This document shows, piece by piece, positions 4,585 through 36,145 of a stretch of 36,145 nucleotides of DNA (its first letter is position 1; each line of letters opens with the position of its first letter). The DNA is taken from the IMG/VR virus record IMGVR_UViG_3300031586_000015, positions 1 to 36,145 of that record; one strand, 5' to 3'. The notes beneath the pieces were generated by a model. The model ran no database searches, was not told the origin of the DNA, and saw only the letters and a program-made list of their open reading frames with translations. The translations under genes and the position numbers were made by a program. The stretch is from a virus.

Positions 4585-4605
4585 TATCACAAAATGAATT
4601 TACTC

Positions 4606-4650
4606 GGGGCTAGAGTGGCGTTACTCCTTGCGTCATATCTAGCCCCTTTC
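4606..4650 (+). terminator. Hairpin, probable partial terminator
   Basis: GGGGCTAGA (4606-4614) pairs with TCTAGCCCC (4638-4646). The inner bases TGGCG and CGTCA extend the helix with one wobble. It is followed by TTTCTAT, a weak U-tract. With the terminator at 3745 it brackets the two decoration genes, so expression probably steps down after each. Confidence 0.6.
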
Positions 4651-4664
4651 TATAAGGAGAGGAT

Positions 4665-4955
4665 ATGAGAATAAGACTATTAAGAAATGTCAGGATGACA
4701 GGGGCAAGCTCCGTAGAACTCTTAGCTGGTACGGTGGTTAAAACGACAAACGAAGTGGCTGAGAAGTGGCTAAAACAAGGCCTGGCTATGGAGGATAAGA
4801 GTATAGACGGTGGGATCGAGACCAAATCAGTTAGCGAAGACAACTCTAATCACAGCACGGTTGCTGCTGATATTGCCTATAAAACGACAGAGGGAGAGGT
4901 AACCGTTGAAAGAAAAACTAGGAACAAAAGAAAAAATAGGATTAAACGAAAATGA
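4665..4955 (+). CDS. Hypothetical protein with basic tail
   Basis: 96 aa, AGGAGAGG site. Residues 1-45 (RIRLLRNVRM, VELLAGTVVKTTNEVAEKWLKQGLA) resemble the short phage proteins often found between capsid and connector genes, with a small beta domain and a helix. The C-terminal 20 residues are almost entirely Lys/Arg/Asn, as in DNA- or RNA-binding tails. No firm family; structural role inferred from place in the head block. Confidence 0.55.
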   Translation: MRIRLLRNVRMTGASSVELLAGTVVKTTNEVAEKWLKQGLAMEDKSIDGGIETKSVSEDNSNHSTVAADIAYKTTEGEVTVERKTRNKRKNRIKRK

Positions 4956-4964
4956 AGGTGAACT

Positions 4965-5378
4965 ATGGCTACAGAGTTCCTAGTCACGAAAAACAACGCA
5001 GAAAGTACATTAAACGGAGCGGTAACCGCTGCTACTACAACATGGATTGTTAATGATGGCAGTCAATTCCCATCGACATATCCGTATCATTTATCCTGTA
5101 ATAGCGAAATAGTCAAGGTTACCAATCGAAGTAGTAATACTTTAACAGTAGAGCGGGCGCAGGAAGGGACTACTGCTGCTCTACATTTGATCGGTGCTAA
5201 TGTCTATCTTAATATCACAGCACAACATTTATCTGATTTGAACACCGCTGTCAATACCCTAGAAGGCATAGCATCAGACGGGGAGATACATTTGACTCCT
5301 AAGAGTTCCTCAAGCGGTGCTGAAGGAACTATGTTTTATGACTCAGGCGACAATCATGTCTATGTAGGTACTGAATAA
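4965..5378 (+). CDS. Putative virion fibre-like protein
   Basis: 137 aa. Contains TLTVERAQEGTTAALHLIGANVYLNITA, a pattern seen in N-terminal parts of many phage fibre and receptor-binding proteins (a short beta domain with V-RGQEGT-A-H-GA). The C-terminal GTMFYDSGDNHVYVGTE resembles the repeated display-type strands of fibres. It is likely virion-associated. It lies in the head half of the operon, so it may be attached to the capsid and not the tail. A good AGGTG site precedes the ATG. Confidence 0.55.
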   Translation: MATEFLVTKNNAESTLNGAVTAATTTWIVNDGSQFPSTYPYHLSCNSEIVKVTNRSSNTLTVERAQEGTTAALHLIGANVYLNITAQHLSDLNTAVNTLEGIASDGEIHLTPKSSSSGAEGTMFYDSGDNHVYVGTE

Positions 5379-5387
5379 GGAGGGTAT

Positions 5388-5543
5388 ATGCAATCAAACA
5401 TCTGGATCAAACAGGCTACTACAATCTATATCGGAGGCGATCCTGCCAAGGGCAAGGCTCCGCAGGTGACTATTACTTTAAATAATCCGCAGGTTTTAGT
5501 AGACCATGAAAAAAATACAATAACTATAATCGAATCAAAGTGA
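5388..5543 (+). CDS. Small beta-strand protein
   Basis: 51 aa starting at ATG 5388 behind AAGGAGGG, between two fibre-like genes. Composition is beta-rich (QATTIYIGG, QVTITLNN, NTITIIESK), with no cysteine or membrane segment. It ends 8 bases before the next gene. Probably a small structural component; no family recognised. Confidence 0.55.
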   Translation: MQSNIWIKQATTIYIGGDPAKGKAPQVTITLNNPQVLVDHEKNTITIIESK

Positions 5544-5551
5544 GGTGAATT

Positions 5552-6391
5552 ATGGGCGTAATATGGGAAAAATTAGCATATGAAGGTGACGTTGTTACTA
5601 AGGCGTTGTTTGATGCTCATACAGTCCTGTATGCAACAACTGATGACACGCCAGCAGCATTGGAAGTAACAGAGCAAACATTAGTCGGTCGATTAACAAG
5701 CGGTAATATATCAGCGGTAGCAATCGGGATAGCTGACAATAACATAGTCCAGATTGACGATGCCGCGGCTGCGGATGATGAATTTGCAAGATTTACGGCT
5801 AATGGTATAGAGGGTGTGGCTTATGCGGACGTGTTAGCTGCTTTATCAGGGCAGATGGGATCGGCATTCGACCTGAATGGGCAGGACTTAACGAATGGTG
5901 GAGTTCTCTTTCTATCCGAGCAGGCAGCGGCTGAGGATGATGTGGAAGCAAAAGGGCAATTATGGGTTAAGACGGTTACTCCAAACGAGTTATGGTTTAC
6001 CGATGATGCGGGGACAGACTTTCAATTAGGACTCGGTTCTGCACATGCCCTGTTGGATGGTGATATCATAAGCGACTCTGTAGCAGATGATGTTACTAGA
6101 GGATCAATAATCTATGGTAATTCAACTCCCAAATGGGACGAGCTCGATCTAGGTGCTGCTGATACTTTCTTAGGTTCAGATGGTACTGACTTGTCTTATC
6201 GGACTGCTGCACAGGTAATGGCATCATTGAGCGGGGAATCTGCCGCCGCGTTTAGCTTAAACGGGCAGGAACTCCAGGAATTTATAGTACACACTGTAGC
6301 CAATGAAGCAGGACGGCCAACTGCTGCGGTAGGTAAAATCTGCTGGCAGACTGACACCCTGGCTCTATATGCCTGCACATCTGACGCATAA
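5552..6391 (+). CDS. Putative head or tail fibre protein
   Basis: 279 aa, GAGGTG site. Low-complexity, Ala/Asp/Thr-rich fibre-like sequence with repeated short modules: LSGQMGSAFDLNGQDL and, later, LSGESAAAFSLNGQEL are an internal repeat. GQLWVKTVTPNELWFTDDAGTDFQL and the C-terminal AVGKICWQTDTLALYACTS are typical of phage fibre repeats. The protein ends abruptly right after ACTSDA, where such modules usually continue, so the C-terminus may be truncated. Surface-exposed virion protein; receptor or host-surface binding is inferred. Confidence 0.6.
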   Translation: MGVIWEKLAYEGDVVTKALFDAHTVLYATTDDTPAALEVTEQTLVGRLTSGNISAVAIGIADNNIVQIDDAAAADDEFARFTANGIEGVAYADVLAALSGQMGSAFDLNGQDLTNGGVLFLSEQAAAEDDVEAKGQLWVKTVTPNELWFTDDAGTDFQLGLGSAHALLDGDIISDSVADDVTRGSIIYGNSTPKWDELDLGAADTFLGSDGTDLSYRTAAQVMASLSGESAAAFSLNGQELQEFIVHTVANEAGRPTAAVGKICWQTDTLALYACTSDA

Positions 6392-6657: not shown

Positions 6658-7059
6658 TTGACAGTAGAATGGAAGAAAATCCCATTTATAGATGAACTGG
6701 ACGGCTCGATAAACTTCGTAATAGATGGTGGTGGTTCAGCAATTACCACAGGAGTTAAGGGTGATATCGAGGTAGGATTTGATTGTACTATTAAAGCATG
6801 TCGCATACTGGCAGACCAGTCAGGTTCTATACAGATTGATATTTGGAAAGACACATACGCCAACTTCCCGCCTACAAATACTGATTCGATAACTGATGCT
6901 GGTACGACTCCCGCGATATCTTCTGCAACCAAGATGGAAGATACGAGTTTGACGTCGTGGACTACCTCTATAACCGCAGGGAATATATTACGGTTCAATG
7001 TTGACTCCTGTACTACGATTGAGAGGGCAACTATTAGTCTAACAGTGGAGAGAACTTAA
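6658..7059 (+). CDS. Putative virion structural protein (beta-sandwich)
   Basis: 133 aa with TTG start at 6658, one base after the previous stop, ribosome site GAAGGTG. Pattern IEVGFDCTIKACRILADQSGSIQIDIWKDTYANFPPT followed by SWTTSITAGNILRFNVDS recurs in phage fibre or adhesin C-terminal domains and looks like a jelly-roll or beta-sandwich. Likely a surface-exposed trimeric domain. No other in-frame ATG exists near the N-terminus, which supports the TTG. Confidence 0.6.
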   Translation: MTVEWKKIPFIDELDGSINFVIDGGGSAITTGVKGDIEVGFDCTIKACRILADQSGSIQIDIWKDTYANFPPTNTDSITDAGTTPAISSATKMEDTSLTSWTTSITAGNILRFNVDSCTTIERATISLTVERT

Positions 7060-7106
7060 TGTCCTGGCTTTCAGGATGGACATACCGCAAGGAAATACAG
7101 GAGTGA
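7059..7106 (+). pseudogene. Vestigial duplicate of the start of the DUF2341 gene
   Basis: ATG 7059 opens a 15-codon frame, MSWLSGWTYRKEIQE then TGA. It closely copies the first residues of the gene starting at 7144 (MAWLSNWTYRKEITV), including the upstream GAGAACTTA. It is best explained as the stump left by loss or replacement of a duplicated adhesin gene. Confidence 0.6.
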
Positions 7107-7143
7107 TACTGAGTTTGAAACTGATAACTTGTAGGAGAACTTA

Positions 7144-8475
7144 ATGGCATGGCTTTCAAATTGGACATACCGTAAAGAGATAACCGTCACCAATGCTTCT
7201 GCCGACTATCAGACCAAGATATTAGTTGGCGAGAGTAGTGGAGCGACAGGGGAAGAAGTAGATTGTGGCGGACACGTTGCCGCAGACTTCGATGACCTAA
7301 GATTTACGGCTGCCGATGGTACTACCTTACTTGACTACTGGATAGAGTCTATCACAGGAAGTACGCCTAACGGATTAGCTACGGTATGGGTTCAGAACAA
7401 TGCTGGGGCTGATGCCACACTCTATATGTACTATGGTGGTACGGAGTCTGCCGTAAGTAGTGGTGCTGATACCTTTGATGATTTTGATGATTTTGAAGCT
7501 GGTACTAATGATTGGGCTATATACAATGGTGGCACTATAAGCTCTAGTACCACTGAAGAAAAACATGGTACACATTCTTTGGAAATAATAGATGATAGTG
7601 GTTCAGCAAGTGAGGGTGCCTATCGTTCATCATTAACGATAGGCAGTAATAAAATGATTACGTTCTGGGACCGTCTCACTGCAGCTAGACAAATACAATT
7701 CATAATACGCGACAGCGGTGCTACCATAGAGAATATCTACTTTGATACTGATGGTGATATTAAGGGACTTGGTGCTGGCGGAGTTATCCAAGCATATAAT
7801 ATAAATCAGTGGTACAAGTTTGATATTAACTTATTCTCTGACACTAACAAGTACAAACTATGGATAGACGATGTTTATAAAGGTGAATATAATCTGTTTG
7901 CTGCTGGTTCAGAAGTAAATGCACTATATAATATCTGTAAATCAACTGAAACTGCAACTTGGTATTTTGATACCTTCCGAGTAAGAAAATACACTGCCAC
8001 AGAACCAACCTTTGCTTTTGGTGCAGAGGTAGAAAGTCCTTGGATTTCCCCCACAGGTCATGTAGACCCTGATACTGCATGGTCTAACGAGACAAATGCT
8101 TATGATGAGAATACGGCAACGGCTGCAACAGAAACTCCAGAAGCAAGTTCATGGGGTTCATATTTAGAACTAACTCATGCTAGTTTATCTTGTGACAAAG
8201 TAAGGTTCTATGCTGAAAGCACTTGGGGTTCAGCAACGGAAATAAGTTTAGATGTTTATTACTCTGATGGATGGCATAATATTTTTGAGGGTGCTTTTGC
8301 AGACCAAGCATGGGTAGAGAAGTCAATAGGTTCTACTCAGCAAGTCACCGCAGCTAGAGTTAAGTTTCTTGGGGATAATCCTATTAGCGACTACTTTTAT
8401 CTCTACGAGTTTGACTTCCATGAGGCTGAGGCTCCAGCAGGATATCCGCACTCATTCGGGGTGATAATCTTCTAA
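7144..8475 (+). CDS. DUF2341 / LamG-like / discoidin-like adhesin
   Basis: 443 aa. Residues 1-100 match DUF2341 (WLSNWTYRKEITVTN, DDLRFTAADGTTLLDYWIES, LYMYYGG), a beta domain frequent in surface proteins. Residues about 115-290 look like a concanavalin/LamG-type sandwich (FEAGTNDWAIYNGG through WYFDTFRVRKY). Residues about 300-440 resemble a discoidin/F5-8-type carbohydrate-binding domain (AYDENTATAA, YLELTHASLSCDKVRFY, YLYEFDFHE). It is likely a glycan-binding virion appendage. Its location upstream of all connector and tail genes hints that it decorates the head or neck. AGGAG site; stop overlaps the next ATG. Confidence 0.7.
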   Translation: MAWLSNWTYRKEITVTNASADYQTKILVGESSGATGEEVDCGGHVAADFDDLRFTAADGTTLLDYWIESITGSTPNGLATVWVQNNAGADATLYMYYGGTESAVSSGADTFDDFDDFEAGTNDWAIYNGGTISSSTTEEKHGTHSLEIIDDSGSASEGAYRSSLTIGSNKMITFWDRLTAARQIQFIIRDSGATIENIYFDTDGDIKGLGAGGVIQAYNINQWYKFDINLFSDTNKYKLWIDDVYKGEYNLFAAGSEVNALYNICKSTETATWYFDTFRVRKYTATEPTFAFGAEVESPWISPTGHVDPDTAWSNETNAYDENTATAATETPEASSWGSYLELTHASLSCDKVRFYAESTWGSATEISLDVYYSDGWHNIFEGAFADQAWVEKSIGSTQQVTAARVKFLGDNPISDYFYLYEFDFHEAEAPAGYPHSFGVIIF

Positions 8476-10415: not shown

Positions 10416-10847
10416 ATGACCACAGCAGCAGTATCAGGGAATGGAACAAAATTAAATTGGGATGGAGTCGACATAGCAGAACCGACCAGCATCACGGGGC
10501 CAAGCGAATCAGCGGGTTCTATTGATTTATCAAGCCATGATTCGGCAGATGCTTATAAAGAGTTCTGTGCGGGGATGCGTGATGGTGGCGAAATATCATT
10601 TGAACTCAATTTTGTATCGACCGATACCACTGGCCAGATAGCCATGCACACGGACTTTCAAGCAGGTTCTACTAAAACATGGATCATAAAACATCCTGCC
10701 TGGGTATCTTCGTCTCACGAATACCCACAAATCACCGGAAGCGGTCATGTTACCTCTTTCAATGTGAGCTTTCCGGACGATGACAAAATATCGGTAAGCG
10801 GGGCTATCAAGGTCACTGGTAAGCCTGTATTAACGGCCAGCGCATAG
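10416..10847 (+). CDS. Tail tube protein, short form
   Basis: 143 aa, AGGAGG site. Beta-rich and typical of the siphoviral tail tube: SSHDSADAYKEFCAGMRDGGEISFELNF, then the Gly-Thr linker and VTSFNVSFPDDDKISVSGAIKVTGKP. Hexamer rings of this protein form the tail tube. It is paralogous to the next gene, which adds a C-terminal domain. Confidence 0.85.
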   Translation: MTTAAVSGNGTKLNWDGVDIAEPTSITGPSESAGSIDLSSHDSADAYKEFCAGMRDGGEISFELNFVSTDTTGQIAMHTDFQAGSTKTWIIKHPAWVSSSHEYPQITGSGHVTSFNVSFPDDDKISVSGAIKVTGKPVLTASA

Positions 10848-10855
10848 GAGGCAAT

Positions 10856-11575
10856 ATGAGTAGTGGTTTATTAGCACATGGAACAGTCTTAATATGGAAT
10901 TTTCAGAAGGTATTGGAATTATCCAATATGAGCATATCTGAGAGCAAGTCCAGTATAAAAGTTTCCTCTCATGATTCTCCGGAAGGTTGGCATGAATATA
11001 TTGCAGGAATGGGAGATGGTGGAGAAATATCACTCGAAGGTAACTCTATTGTCGGCGATACCAAGGGGCAAATAGCATTACATACTGATAAACAGGCTGG
11101 AACTAAAAGATACTGTTATATTGTACCTCCGATGTCTCATGCTTGGGCTATGGAACAATATGCTATTGTGACTGGTTTCGGTAATTCCTTCCCTATGGAT
11201 GATAAAATCTCTCTAACCGGTACCTTAAAAGTCTCAGGAAAGCCTTTAATGTATCTAACACAATCTACCGGGATATCTGCACTCTCAGGCATAGAACAGA
11301 CCGACACTACGGCACTGGAAATAGCAGAGGACATAGCAGCGGGGACTTATGCTTATACCTGCACTGTTGATACTGCTTCTGATTGGGTAAAACTCACAGT
11401 GACCGCTGCAAGCCATACAATTTACGCAGACGGGGTTGCACAGACAACCACAGTCCAGGGAGATGAAATAACACTGGGCGCGGCCGGGACAACTACAGAC
11501 ATATTGATAATGGTATTCGAGTCCACGAAGTCACCTAGATTATATAAATTAACAGTAACGAGACCGGCAGCATAA
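10856..11575 (+). CDS. Tail tube protein, long form with added beta-sandwich domain
   Basis: 239 aa, AGGAGG site. Residues 1-140 repeat the tube fold of the preceding gene (SSHDSPEGWHEYIAGMGDGGEISLEGN, FPMDDKISLTGTLKVSGKP). Residues about 145-239 form an additional domain with a cadherin-like beta-sandwich pattern (ISALSGIEQTDT, AYTCTVDTASDWVKLTVTA, RLYKLTVTR), which would project from the tail surface. Two tube genes in tandem imply a mixed tube, or different tubes for shaft and tip. Confidence 0.78.
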   Translation: MSSGLLAHGTVLIWNFQKVLELSNMSISESKSSIKVSSHDSPEGWHEYIAGMGDGGEISLEGNSIVGDTKGQIALHTDKQAGTKRYCYIVPPMSHAWAMEQYAIVTGFGNSFPMDDKISLTGTLKVSGKPLMYLTQSTGISALSGIEQTDTTALEIAEDIAAGTYAYTCTVDTASDWVKLTVTAASHTIYADGVAQTTTVQGDEITLGAAGTTTDILIMVFESTKSPRLYKLTVTRPAA

Positions 11576-12211: not shown

Positions 12212-12513
12212 ATAGGTGGGCATTCGGGAGATATTGTCTTAATCTTAAAGAAGAGGAATACTGGAAGCTATCACCAAGACAATTCTATGCACTCAGCAAA
12301 CAATACCAGAAAGAACAGGAAAGTCTAGACCGCAGAGCAGCCTTAATCTGTTCTATATTGGCTGAGATTAACAGAGACCCTAAAAAGAAAAAAGACTCAT
12401 TTAAGATAGAGGACTTCATGCCTAAATTTGTAAAACACACGGAGCAATCACCTGAGGTTATGAAAAAACAAGCTATGTTAATTACTCGCATGTTGGGCGG
12501 TAAAGTTATATGA
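12190..12513 (+). CDS. Tail assembly chaperone T segment (frameshift extension, GT-like)
   Basis: 107 codons open with no start codon of its own near the beginning, read after -1 frameshift at 12184-12190. Fused product 11789-12513 would be about 241 aa. The segment begins IGKVSRLDRWAFGRYCLNLKEEEYWKLSPRQFYALSKQYQ and ends MLITRMLGGKVI. The YWKLSPRQFYALSK motif is typical of the T half of GT chaperones. Its stop overlaps the tape measure start (ATGA). Confidence 0.75.
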   Translation: MGKVSRLDRWAFGRYCLNLKEEEYWKLSPRQFYALSKQYQKEQESLDRRAALICSILAEINRDPKKKKDSFKIEDFMPKFVKHTEQSPEVMKKQAMLITRMLGGKVI

Positions 12514-14111
12514 ATGTATTCGATTTATTTGGGCAAATTAAATTAGACGGAGCTTCTGCTGTTAAAAAGGAATTATCAGAGACCGAGGCTCACGCCAAGA
12601 AAGTCTCCGATGCTATGAAAATAATGGGAACGATGTTCACTGCTGTTGGAGCTGCTGGTTTAAAGATGGTATCCGATGCAAGGCAAATGAACGCTCAACT
12701 CGGGCAGACAGCCTTGACTCTTGGAATATCTACTAAAGAGATGCGAGACCTGGCGCTCGAGACCACTAATGTAACGTTTCCTTTGGAGTCGGTAAAGAAT
12801 ACGTTTGATTTACTAACTAAAGCGGGCGTTAGAAATACTCAGGAATTAAAGAACTCGGCTGGCGCTTTTGATGCTCTGGCTGATGCAACCGGGTCGAGTG
12901 CTGAGACTGTAGCTGATATTCTGATACCAGCTTTAAAGGCTATGGGCGAAACCTTACCTCAAAACTCTGCTGATTTAGATAAATTCACCTGGCTAACTAA
13001 AAACACCACTACGGAGTTATCTGATTTCGGGTCGGTAATGGATTATGTGGCCATGTATGGCAAGGATTTAAATGTATCACTAGATGATATGATAGCTATC
13101 ATGGCTATTCTAGAAGACCAAGGCAAAGGTGGGGCTACTGCTACTAGATTGTTTAGAACTGCTGTTACTGAAGCAGCTGATGGTACGGTGACTCTTAATG
13201 AAGCGTTAGGGATTACACCTGAAGAGATAGCCAAATACAGGACAGAAATGGAAGGGGCTACAGGTATAACAGACGATTATGCCGAAGTTGCCAATGAGCA
13301 ATACGGTATCATGGACAAGATTAAGCAGAAGTTCTCAGAACTGACATTAGTAGCAGGGTCTTATCTAACTCCGTTAGAACCTATATTAGCGGCAATGACA
13401 GCTATGGGGCCTGCTATGATTTTATTATCCTCTGCTACAGGAATTCAAACGATTAAGACTGTAGCTCATACCGTTGCATTAGTAGCTCATACCGTGGCCC
13501 ATGGGGTTGCTACCGCTGCTCAGTGGGCTTTCAATGCTGCGGTGAGTGCTAATCCTATCGGGCTTATTATATTAGCAATAGCTGCTCTTGTAACAGGGAT
13601 TATTTTACTGGCTAAGAATTGGGATTTCGTAAAAGAGAAGATGTTAGTTGTCTGGGACGTGATAGTCTCGATTGTGAAAGGGCATATCAATTTAGTAATC
13701 GGATTCATAAACGGCATGATATGGGCTATTGAAAAGGCTATCAACTTTTTAGGCGATGCTATAAGACAACTACCATCTATAACTATTCCAGATTGGGTTC
13801 CGCTAATTGGTGGTAAAGAGTTTTCATGGCCTGCGCCTCCTCCAATCGAACTTCCTAGAATTCCTTTATTAGATACTGGAGGGCTAGTTCAGGGGCCCGG
13901 AGTGTTCCAAGTTGGCCCGGGCGTAAAAGAGGTTGTTAGAACACCTTCCGGTAACAAAGAGCTACATGTTCATATTGGTGTTTTTGCAGGCACTGAGACA
14001 GAATTTAGAGTTCTCGTTAAAAAGATAAAGGAGGTCATGGGTGAAGATGATAGGCGTAATGCCTTCGGACAGCTTGGGGAAGGTTATTTCTATGGCAGGA
14101 GTTCTATCTAA
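12510..14111 (+). CDS. Tail tape measure protein
   Basis: 533 aa. N-terminal coiled-coil-like region (VKKELSETEAHAKKVSDAMKIMG), Ala/Gly-rich middle resembling phage tail tape measure repeats (TLGISTKEMRDLALETTNVTF, FDALADATGSSAETVADILIPALKAMGE) and hydrophobic helices at about 285-380 (AMTAMGPAMILLSS, ANPIGLIILAIAALVTGIILLAKNW) that could insert in the host membrane. It is short, so a tail of about 80 nm is expected by the usual 0.15 nm per residue. ATGA overlap with the chaperone, TAATG with the next gene. Confidence 0.88.
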   Translation: MNVFDLFGQIKLDGASAVKKELSETEAHAKKVSDAMKIMGTMFTAVGAAGLKMVSDARQMNAQLGQTALTLGISTKEMRDLALETTNVTFPLESVKNTFDLLTKAGVRNTQELKNSAGAFDALADATGSSAETVADILIPALKAMGETLPQNSADLDKFTWLTKNTTTELSDFGSVMDYVAMYGKDLNVSLDDMIAIMAILEDQGKGGATATRLFRTAVTEAADGTVTLNEALGITPEEIAKYRTEMEGATGITDDYAEVANEQYGIMDKIKQKFSELTLVAGSYLTPLEPILAAMTAMGPAMILLSSATGIQTIKTVAHTVALVAHTVAHGVATAAQWAFNAAVSANPIGLIILAIAALVTGIILLAKNWDFVKEKMLVVWDVIVSIVKGHINLVIGFINGMIWAIEKAINFLGDAIRQLPSITIPDWVPLIGGKEFSWPAPPPIELPRIPLLDTGGLVQGPGVFQVGPGVKEVVRTPSGNKELHVHIGVFAGTETEFRVLVKKIKEVMGEDDRRNAFGQLGEGYFYGRSSI

Positions 14112-14659
14112 TGGCCCGCGATGTGGAAATGGAAGTCATGGTAGATTGGAATGCTACCGACTGGGCGGCTACTCCAGATTTCTCAGAGGATATTGACGAT
14201 ATTACCGATGATTTTATCAACATGGGGGGATCCCGGGGCAAAGAAAAAGAATCGGGTAACATTCCTGCAGGAACTGTTGATATCGAATTAAGAAACCTGG
14301 CAGGGAAGTACCATCCGAGAAATACCTCGAGCCCTTTATATGGCTTGATCAGGCCCATGTTGCCGATAAGAATTCGTGAAACATCTGATGAGGAAACTGT
14401 AACTCTTTATACAGGCTTTATTTCAAAGATTAAGATTCCAGACCAGAGAGATGTTAGAACTGCGCACCTATACTGCACCGATGGTTTAGATATCATATCC
14501 AGGAATTTAGTGTCGCAGGACGAGGAAGAGTTAACTACACAGTCAGACGGGGATTCTATCGGTGATTTATTGGATGCTGCGGGATGGCCTTCTGGTAAAA
14601 GAAATATAGACACCGATGGCGGAGATGTGCTCCAATACCCAAAGACAAGGGAATATTAG
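14111..14659 (+). CDS. Tail hub/tip protein, N-terminal part of a split gene
   Basis: 182 aa. Resembles the first domain of the common siphoviral minor tail (distal tail/hub) protein: VEMEVMVDWNATDW, the Gly/Arg-rich GGSRGKEKESGNIPAGTVDIELRNLAGKYHPRN, LYTGFISKIKIPDQR, and GDLLDAAGWPSGKRNID. In relatives the chain continues past VLQYPKTRE- into a domain that here appears only inside the next two genes. The TAG stop (14657-14659) is followed at once by the next ATG in the same reading frame. Confidence 0.72.
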   Translation: MARDVEMEVMVDWNATDWAATPDFSEDIDDITDDFINMGGSRGKEKESGNIPAGTVDIELRNLAGKYHPRNTSSPLYGLIRPMLPIRIRETSDEETVTLYTGFISKIKIPDQRDVRTAHLYCTDGLDIISRNLVSQDEEELTTQSDGDSIGDLLDAAGWPSGKRNIDTDGGDVLQYPKTREY

Positions 14660-15418
14660 ATGTCGAATAAAATCTCTACTACACAAAACAAACTAGTATA
14701 TAGAGGGGGAGTTGATGAAACTTGGGGGACTATCCGGGATGGAGCTGGTACGGGGGCAACCTACGATTCTGGTTGTGGTTTTAACTGCTCAACCACTAAT
14801 GGGCAATTTGCAGATTTGTTGCGGTCTATTATCACGTTTGATACATCCGATATAGGAAATAGAAAGATTAGCAGTGCTAGTGTTAAGCTAGAAGATTACA
14901 ACAATCTAGGTAGCTATGCTGGTACAACTCCAAATATAGGTATAGCTGTTTATGGCGCAACACCTTCAGACCCTGAGAGCATTGTTGCTGCTGATTATGG
15001 TAATTGTGGCACTACGATACTATCAGACATAGTTCGTAGAGATACCATAGTTGCTCAAGAATTATTACAACATGGCATATTTTTGGAATTGGATAAAACA
15101 GGAATAGACTACATCAATACATCAGGCTATACCTCTTTCAGTTTGCGCGACCCTATTTACGATGTCGCCGGTAGTGTACCCAGTTGGGAGTCTGAAAGGG
15201 CATCTTACATAGTGGATTTATCCGCCTGTACAGTATATCTGCTAGTCAGCTATACAGAGAGTGAATCGGAAATCAAGGATAGTAGTATCATAAAACGCAA
15301 GGTGACATTAGAGGCTGCACGGAATTTAGAGGTTCAATTCGGAGGGAGGATATATATATCAAAGTCAGGTAATTTCACTTATGAATCACGTTTCCACAGG
15401 CAATCGGAGGATTTATGA
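14660..15418 (+). CDS. Inserted adhesin-like domain fused to the middle part of the split tail hub
   Basis: 252 aa starting directly after the amber stop of the previous gene and in the same frame. Residues 1-210 (NKLVYRGGVDETWGTIRDGA, SIITFDTSDIGNRKISSASVKLED, IDYINTSGYTSFSLRDPIYD) form a DNRLRE/beta-sandwich-like surface domain. Residues about 215-252 (KVTLEAARNLEVQFGGRIYISKSGNFTYESRFHR) are the conserved middle of the tail hub family (compare the usual element -GGxxYxxxDGxLxxExRxHR). AAGGGA may be its ribosome site. See the findings on the three-part arrangement. Confidence 0.7.
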   Translation: MSNKISTTQNKLVYRGGVDETWGTIRDGAGTGATYDSGCGFNCSTTNGQFADLLRSIITFDTSDIGNRKISSASVKLEDYNNLGSYAGTTPNIGIAVYGATPSDPESIVAADYGNCGTTILSDIVRRDTIVAQELLQHGIFLELDKTGIDYINTSGYTSFSLRDPIYDVAGSVPSWESERASYIVDLSACTVYLLVSYTESESEIKDSSIIKRKVTLEAARNLEVQFGGRIYISKSGNFTYESRFHRQSEDL

Positions 15419-16263
15419 ACTGGACTGTTCCCAGTGGCATAATAAAAGCCTTCTCGTATGAATTGTCAGAGCGCGAGATATATAACGATATCCGCTCTGA
15501 AATTGGAAAAACAAACTCCGAGACGGTTATCGATGATGATGCAGATTACTCATGGAAGGTTTGGACTAAATATTCGGGGCTACCTGCTCCGGGCTATACT
15601 CATTTTGCATATTTTACAGCCACACAACAATCTCCCATATCGTGGAAATTAGTAAACGTATCAGCAGCTACATATGCAAAAGTGCCCTATTACGATTATG
15701 AGATTGAACTCCAAGATACTAATGACGATTTAACTAAGGCAGTAAGAATTAAAAATAAGGGTTCTTCCGGTGGGACAATACAATATACAGTCAAATATAA
15801 ATACCTTACATCAGAGGAAGTTACCCATGAAGAAACGACTGAGACAATTTTAACTGTACGGTCTACCGATGAGGAAAGTATATCGACGTATGCCAGGCGG
15901 TCAATGAACCTTGTATGGCCACAAGGGGCTACAGAGGAAACGGTTCAGGGGTTATGCGATTTTAATAGAAACAGGTATAAAGACCCTTATGGTTATGCAA
16001 CTCTGGTACTGATAGGTGACACGGCCGCGAAACGGGAGATAATCTTTAAGGCTGAGATGTCGGATATTATGACTGTGACCGATGCTTATTCCTACCTTCC
16101 TGAGACGGATTTCTTTGTAGACAGCATCGACTTTGACATAGATATAGAAAGGCTGAATATACCTATTGCTACATTCGGGCTCGTAGAACAGAGACCAGTT
16201 GAAACGATGGTATATTTCAGATTTGGGAGCGGGCATTTTGGCGGGCCAGAAGTATTTGGCTAG
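15415..16263 (+). CDS. Tail hub/tip protein, C-terminal part of a split gene
   Basis: 282 aa. GGAGG site and an ATGA overlap with the preceding gene. The beginning, VPSGIIKAFSYELSEREIYNDIRSEIG, corresponds to the segment that normally follows the ESRFHR element in single-chain minor tail proteins, so the third piece of one ancestral protein is here. The rest has beta-rich repeats (YDYEIELQDTNDD, DPYGYATLVLIGDTAAKREIIFKAEMSD, DSIDFDIDIERLNI) and a C-terminal FRFGSGHFGG. It is likely part of the tail tip, near receptor-binding machinery. Confidence 0.7.
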   Translation: MNWTVPSGIIKAFSYELSEREIYNDIRSEIGKTNSETVIDDDADYSWKVWTKYSGLPAPGYTHFAYFTATQQSPISWKLVNVSAATYAKVPYYDYEIELQDTNDDLTKAVRIKNKGSSGGTIQYTVKYKYLTSEEVTHEETTETILTVRSTDEESISTYARRSMNLVWPQGATEETVQGLCDFNRNRYKDPYGYATLVLIGDTAAKREIIFKAEMSDIMTVTDAYSYLPETDFFVDSIDFDIDIERLNIPIATFGLVEQRPVETMVYFRFGSGHFGGPEVFG

Positions 16264-35537: not shown

Positions 35538-36145
35538 ATGTTTGAAAACATAAGAAATAAAATAGCCCTGGGTTTAATCAGTAAGAAAGAGCAGATGACT
35601 CCCCTTATGTCTAGGATATTCAGCAATGCCTATTCTATGATGACTATGCCGGGACAACCGGTGTATACAGATATAACAGCTAACAAGGCCATTAGAGAAG
35701 GCTATAAAATGGCCGTTCCCGTTTATAGGGCTATCAGAACGATAGTCCAGGCGGCATCGGGTATCCCTTGGATAGTGTTAGATAATAAAGGGGAGGAGAT
35801 AGAAAATCATCCGTTTACTCAAGCCTGGTCAAAACCTAACCCTGAATTCTCAGGCCAGGATAATATGGAGTATATAATCGCTCATTTGATTCTTGCAGGC
35901 AATGCTTACCTGAGACCTATTTACAGAGGCAGAGAACCAATAGAGTTTTGGATAGAGATGCCAGACCTCGTAAAACCAATACCCGCTAACAATCGTGATG
36001 ACTGGATTCAAGGGTATGAATATACTTTATTTGGTGGGCAAAAGATTACACTTGAACGTGAGGCTATTTTACATTTCAAACAATTAGACCCCGGAAATTT
36101 GTTTATAGGCATGGGGGCTATTCAAGCAGGTGGTAGAGTAATCGA
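35538..36145 (+). CDS. Portal-MuF fusion protein, N-terminal part (continues at 3)
   Basis: Start ATG 35538, 202 codons before the window ends, then continues in the same frame at base 3. N-terminus FENIRNKIALGLISKKEQM, then YRAIRTIVQAASGIPWIVLDNKGEEIENHPFTQAWSKPNPEFSGQDNMEYIIAHLILAGNAYL, the conserved start of HK97/SPP1-type portals. The last 42 codons duplicate the left end. Confidence 0.9.
   Translation, partial: MFENIRNKIALGLISKKEQMTPLMSRIFSNAYSMMTMPGQPVYTDITANKAIREGYKMAVPVYRAIRTIVQAASGIPWIVLDNKGEEIENHPFTQAWSKPNPEFSGQDNMEYIIAHLILAGNAYLRPIYRGREPIEFWIEMPDLVKPIPANNRDDWIQGYEYTLFGGQKITLEREAILHFKQLDPGNLFIGMGAIQAGGRVI
36019..36145. repeat. 127-bp terminal direct repeat, right copy
   Basis: Second copy of the left-end sequence 1-127. 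It implies that the window ends join within the portal gene, with no base lost or gained. Confidence 0.95.

Follow-up and report, generated by a model that had tools for sequence, protein, structure and literature searches.

A phage tail hub apparently divided among three polypeptides, with an exchangeable putative adhesin on the middle one

The stretch of DNA considered here (the window) is the 36,145-nucleotide IMG/VR virus record IMGVR_UViG_3300031586_000015, positions 1-36,145, from an uncultured phage. Immediately 3' of its tape measure gene lies a tight array of three short open reading frames (ORFs) on the plus strand, at 14111-14659, 14660-15418 and 15415-16263, referred to below as pieces 1, 2 and 3. 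Comparisons of sequences and profiles indicate that the three adjacent genes of 14111-16263 together specify one tail hub of the gp27/VgrG type, and that the middle gene carries, in addition to its share of the hub, a foreign domain that changes from relative to relative. A sequence-only reading of this DNA had already proposed that one hub protein is encoded in pieces by three consecutive genes, and the ORFs, the motifs at their ends and the junctions between them are as it described.

The three genes and the hub fold

The tape measure gene (12510-14111, plus strand; Pfam PhageMin_Tail, E 4.6e-14; phrog_991, E 3.7e-26) is overlapped at its stop, at 14111, by the ATG of piece 1, which marks the tail-tip position: the array stands directly 3' of the tape measure gene, where the hub gene is found in a siphoviral tail operon. 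Piece 1 (14111-14659, 182 residues) is predicted to form the N-terminal β-barrel of the hub (HDI) and the first half of HDII. It ends in a TAG codon at 14657-14659, followed at once and in the same frame by the ATG of piece 2, for which AAGGGA at 14647-14652, within the end of piece 1, is the probable Shine-Dalgarno sequence (duplex energy -5.3, against a background median of -2.8). Piece 2 (14660-15418, 252 residues, TGA stop) begins with an insert of about 205 residues (14660-15289), a putative surface-binding β-sandwich of a DNRLRE/CBM96-like kind, and ends with a plug (15290-15415) made of 37 conserved residues and QSEDL, predicted to be a helix and a β-hairpin that complete HDII. Piece 3 (15415-16263, 282 residues, TAG stop) is in the -1 frame and overlaps piece 2 by ATGA, with its Shine-Dalgarno sequence GGAGGA at 15406-15411 (duplex energy -9.5) inside the end of piece 2; it would supply the second barrel and the C-terminal hub domains (HDIII/HDIV). 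The sequence-only reading had placed a foreign domain between pieces 1 and 2. An unrelated β domain is indeed there, but as the N-terminal part of piece 2, with no gene of its own.

The common origin of the pieces is evident from relatives in which the hub is a single protein. In profile-profile comparison (hhalign), three module profiles cover the uninterrupted relative L009 without overlap, with piece 1 aligned to residues 1-175 (99.9%, E 2e-33), the plug to 176-210 (96.7%, E 4e-10) and piece 3 to 220-505 (99.4%, E 3e-21); the insert residues have no counterpart in it. Against a profile of three close uninterrupted hubs, the window pieces joined without the insert score 114.9 bits, compared with 92.8, 10.5 and 12.2 bits singly. 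Profiles built with the window left out recover piece 1 (E 4e-72), the plug of piece 2 (E 7e-17) and piece 3 (E 5e-89), a similarity well outside what chance would give, and the single ORF of a second uninterrupted relative, L014, holds all modules (piece 1, E 1e-24; plug, E 2e-4; piece 3, E 8e-12). Piece 1 by itself matches phrog_5313 (E 1.8e-12) and, weakly, phrog_35697 (E 0.016), has no Pfam match up to E 1, and resembles the N-terminal half of an uncharacterised protein of about 430 residues from Microcystis phage Mae-JY09. As the sequence-only reading had anticipated, relatives with one uninterrupted gene exist: a scan with profiles as bait yielded 80 viral contigs, with one uninterrupted hub ORF in all that are not cut by a contig end, and such a gene is present in 75 contigs and in Mae-JY09. 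Scans of viral contigs with each single piece of the window gave no matches, so that relatives had to be sought with alignments, the tape measure protein and the capsid protein as bait, and a search of phage genomes at the DNA level also gave none.

An AlphaFold2 model of L009, from an alignment of 24 sequences, has a predicted local distance difference test score (pLDDT) of 82.5 and matches the MuSo2 43-kDa tail protein (TMt 0.68), Mu gp44 (0.70), T4 gp27 (0.64) and 80alpha Tal (0.55), as well as VgrG and a Neisseria tail protein. The hub family is therefore predicted to have the gp27/VgrG/Tal-type fold, with two barrel domains, HDII and HDIV, the labels HDI to HDIV being assigned here to the L009 model by analogy with gp27. 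With the window pieces aligned along this model, piece 1 ends at a strand of HDII (168-178), the plug corresponds to a helix (179-190) and the strands of a hairpin (193-196 and 202-205), and piece 3 begins ahead of the second barrel. Both breaks fall at edges of secondary-structure elements, and the insert site lies between strand 168-178 and helix 179-190.

Conservation of the split

Relatives with a divided hub were collected with the tape measure protein, then with alignments of pieces 1 and 3, as bait. About 30 further metagenomic contigs, a count that includes near-identical pairs such as L218/L219 and L190/L191, have separate piece 1, plug-bearing and piece 3 ORFs in the same order; the piece 1 gene itself is carried by 30 other contigs and ends in YPxTxEY or a similar motif. 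In a tree of the piece 1 region, the split contigs form one clade (Shimodaira-Hasegawa-like approximate likelihood ratio test, SH-aLRT, 99) and all 30 uninterrupted hubs (30 of 30) fall outside it. In close pairs, the ratio of nonsynonymous to synonymous divergence (dN/dS) of the pieces is 0.01-0.15, a sign of strong purifying selection.

The junctions show how the pieces may be made. All three pieces have separate starts, most of them preceded by a Shine-Dalgarno sequence. Between pieces 1 and 2 the gap ranges from -1 to about +9 across relatives, whereas pieces 2 and 3 overlap at the start in every case tested, by -4, -1 or -8 bases, and a strong Shine-Dalgarno sequence precedes piece 3 in 96% of relatives, compared with 26% of background ATGs. 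In L102-L105, the TAG of piece 1 forms part of the Shine-Dalgarno sequence of piece 2, TAGGAG. Such overlaps, short gaps and ribosome-binding sequences are what coupled re-initiation is expected to leave in a sequence.

The exchangeable insert and the constant plug

The window insert has no Pfam match, and a PDB sequence search with its insert family gave chance matches only. By alignment it groups with the inserts of L180, L185, L211 and L214. Its match to the NCBIfam model DNRLRE_dom is sub-threshold (E 0.0031; 17.6 bits against a curated cut-off of 34); the same model matches four of the five insert family members (best E 6.8e-5), and the L180 insert matches CBM96 at 14.5 bits against a cut-off of 26. 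Other split hubs have other domains: GLUG repeats in L101, L103, L105, L177 and L188 and, by eye, in L102, L104, L178, L184 and more; a Vgb-lyase-like, β-propeller-like repeat in L182; and, again by eye, FN3-like or unassigned β domains elsewhere. The length of the insert runs from nothing, leaving a naked plug, to about 600 residues, and the plug is constant throughout. A domain of the same kind as that of the window occurs at a different site in L014 (2331-4541), at the N-terminus of the uninterrupted 737-residue hub.

Placed on the piece 1 tree, the 10 insert types require at least 13 changes. L205 and L206 are 98% identical in piece 1 and 94% in piece 3 but 49% in the insert, and L220 and L221 are 96%, 97% and 49% identical in the same three parts. 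In L103 and L104 the synonymous divergence (dS) of piece 2 is 0.04, compared with 0.18 for piece 1 and 0.33 for piece 3, as expected if piece 2 had moved between them. These comparisons indicate that piece 2 can exchange its foreign part. The sequence-only reading had considered a recent domain capture at the window; this does not hold, since the split is common to the whole clade and the domain is what keeps changing. It is the domain type, together with this variability, that makes the insert a putative binding domain, and probably a host-binding adhesin.

Rearranged hubs in some relatives suggest that the plug is a functional docking unit. L182 (IMGVR_UViG_3300029812_000006) has, between pieces 1 and 3, two tandem piece 2 genes (6716-8197) that differ in their inserts but both terminate in a plug; an ORF of 132 residues lies upstream of the two. 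In L217-L223 the hub occupies five genes, namely piece 1, a naked plug of 60 residues, an adhesin with plug, and two different piece 3 genes (for example L218, 5922-9433, with piece 3 proteins of 155 and 363 residues). L181 has a separate gene for the plug, and L210 has most of the foreign domain in a separate ORF. A tentative extension, for which the odds are rather long, is that the hub is a socket and the plug a standard docking tag for any protein that ends in it, so that mixed hubs may be assembled where a phage has two plug genes (L182, L217-L223) or two piece 3 genes, and virions of one population could bear different adhesins, or subunits both with and without an adhesin; if so, host range could vary without mutation. 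The idea in the sequence-only reading that hubs with and without the adhesin are both produced has indirect support in the naked plug beside an adhesin-bearing plug in some relatives, but the means would be gene duplication and not read-through.

Proposed assembly, its alternatives and related systems

The explanation that best joins these results, with a probability of roughly three in four, is that one gp27-type hub subunit is encoded as three polypeptides, translated one after another by termination and re-initiation. The first barrel (HDI) and the opening part of HDII would come from piece 1; piece 2 would bring a variable surface-binding domain and dock into HDII by its constant 37-residue helix-hairpin plug; and piece 3 would give HDIII/HDIV, so that the trimeric hub under the tape measure would contain three copies of each piece. 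As the adhesin sits on a small separate protein whose docking end is fixed, recombination could exchange it and leave the hub undisturbed. Several points count against this explanation. Assembly into one hub, with the insert displayed on the virion and binding the host, is deduced from genes and the prediction of a single chain, and the binding role of the insert from its type and variability. Piece 3 taken alone is only weakly similar to the uninterrupted hubs and needs profiles to be matched to them. The AlphaFold model of piece 1 with piece 2 is poor (pLDDT 52), so that the fold of the insert is read from sequence. Finally, L205 has only part of a plug: compared with L206, its piece 2 (4589-5833) has an in-frame loss of about 16 plug-hairpin codons, which is either a real deletion or an assembly fault.

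The strongest alternative, distinctly less probable than the assembly described above yet deserving of some weight, retains the hub of three polypeptides and differs in the role of the insert, which would close or shape the tail-tip tube in the manner of the HDII insertion and plug of T5 pb3 or of lambda gpI. A part that closes the tube should, however, be more constant than the inserts, which are mutually unrelated (GLUG, DNRLRE-like, propeller-like and FN3-like) and vary from absent to about 600 residues, and the DNRLRE-like domain of L014 stands at the N-terminus of an uninterrupted hub.

It is also conceivable, if improbable, that the pieces are three independent proteins with folds of their own that merely share ancestry with segments of a hub. 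Their separate starts fit this, as do the separate ORFs for plug and adhesin in L181 and L210. A helix-hairpin of 35-40 residues, however, is unlikely to be a stable domain and is nonetheless kept at the end of unrelated inserts, and piece 1 ends within HDII, with boundaries that tile a single hub.

The proposal of the sequence-only reading that amber read-through at 14657 could fuse piece 2 to piece 1, giving hubs with and without adhesin, is now very improbable. An in-frame ATG does follow the TAG at once in the window and in L178 and L205. Across 31 junctions of pieces 1 and 2, however, the stop is TAA in 17, TAG in 11 and TGA in three, and frames 0, 1 and 2 occur in 11, six and 14 (for L186 the start coordinate was entered three bases short of the ATG in this count, with its frame unaffected), so that piece 2 is in frame in only 11 of the 31. 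The plug that the hub needs lies 3' of the adhesin, and a stop at TAG would therefore give no complete adhesin-free hub. TAG is, as had been noted earlier, an ordinary stop in the window, where it ends 11 of 40 likely genes; no tRNA gene, and therefore no suppressor tRNA, was found there; and piece 2 has its own ATG and Shine-Dalgarno sequence. Frameshifting at 15415 was likewise rejected on three grounds: a slippery heptamer was not seen, the length of the overlap is variable, and piece 3 has a strong Shine-Dalgarno sequence. No Rfam match that would indicate an intron was found anywhere in the window, and no features of an intein were seen by eye.

That the gene is simply broken, whether by decay, recent insertion or faulty assembly, is the least credible reading of all: most relatives do have one gene and a foreign domain does sit at the break, but the same breaks recur in some 30 contigs of one clade from many metagenomes, dN/dS is far below 1, the starts are coupled and the neighbouring tail genes are complete.

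Two kinds of known system resemble the proposed three-polypeptide hub. In phage lambda (gpL/gpI/gpJ) and RcGTA (gp13/gp15), a gp27-type hub is composed of more than one polypeptide, the break falling within HDII or beside it and a middle gene separating those for the HDI and HDIII-IV proteins (PMC10721106, PMC13243795), an arrangement that the window hub shares. In lambda, however, HDII belongs to gpJ and gpI is a tube plug, whereas in the window HDII would be shared by piece 1 and the piece 2 plug, the middle protein supplying the helix-hairpin of HDII and carrying the exchangeable foreign domain. Piece 1 also has no Pfam match to the gpL family and has a single cysteine, in contrast to the C-terminal cysteines of gpL for an iron-sulfur cluster. 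The second kind is that of the evolved Tal and Dit proteins of siphophages of Gram-positive bacteria, in which domains of carbohydrate-binding type are inserted in the gp27-like hub domain or in Dit (PMC7291167). The window hub similarly has a foreign, putative binding-type domain (DNRLRE-like, sub-threshold) within a hub domain; unlike those single polypeptides, it comprises three ORFs, with the chain broken on both sides of the plug-bearing piece.

Among closer relatives, the uninterrupted hubs of uncultured Caudoviricetes (phrog_5313 type; Mae-JY09, L009 and L014) have the same modules in the same order as the window but in one gene, with no insert at the window's site. Thermobifida phage P1312 (L003, KT021004.1, 4311-9571) has an ATGA break at the site between pieces 2 and 3, with a foreign domain at the break. 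Its gene 021 extends through the plug, and 022 opens with a phosphodiesterase domain followed by the remaining hub. P1312 differs from the window in having two pieces, with the phosphodiesterase on the second and a LamG-like domain elsewhere. This break is probably an independent event, and an uninterrupted ORF in Nocardiopsis lucentensis (L091) spans the equivalent of 021 and 022. No description was found, in the open-access literature, of an HDII shared by two chains together with a middle gene that pairs an exchangeable domain with a constant docking end. Hubs encoded by several genes and hubs bearing carbohydrate-binding domains are already known; a hub split in three, one part being an adhesin subunit that can be swapped, seems to be a novel variant.

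Few parts of a phage are as conserved as the tail hub, which must keep the tube closed until a host is found. Here the hub chain has been cut twice, stably and across a whole lineage, and its middle fragment now serves as an interchangeable vehicle for putative host-binding domains. This suggests a plug-in mode by which a phage may alter its grip on the host; if the proposed assembly is correct, the family would also be a natural case of split-protein assembly in a phage hub. Metagenomes might be searched with the plug as a marker motif to reveal new phage binding domains, and the family allows a clear test of whether such domains are exchanged faster once a gene is broken.

Other structural genes of the window have features of related interest. 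Two adjacent and similar tail-tube-like proteins are encoded at 10416-10847 and 10856-11575, of which the second matches Phage_tail_2 and has an added cadherin-like β domain, so that the tail tube too may have a decorated form. Among the head-to-tail genes, 7144-8475 encodes a 443-residue protein with DUF2341 and a weak match to a sialidase-like carbohydrate-binding module, possibly another surface-binding decoration. The portal gene (Pfam Phage_portal) at 35721-36145 runs on into 1-1523, across the ends of the record, which is therefore probably a complete circular map cut inside that gene.

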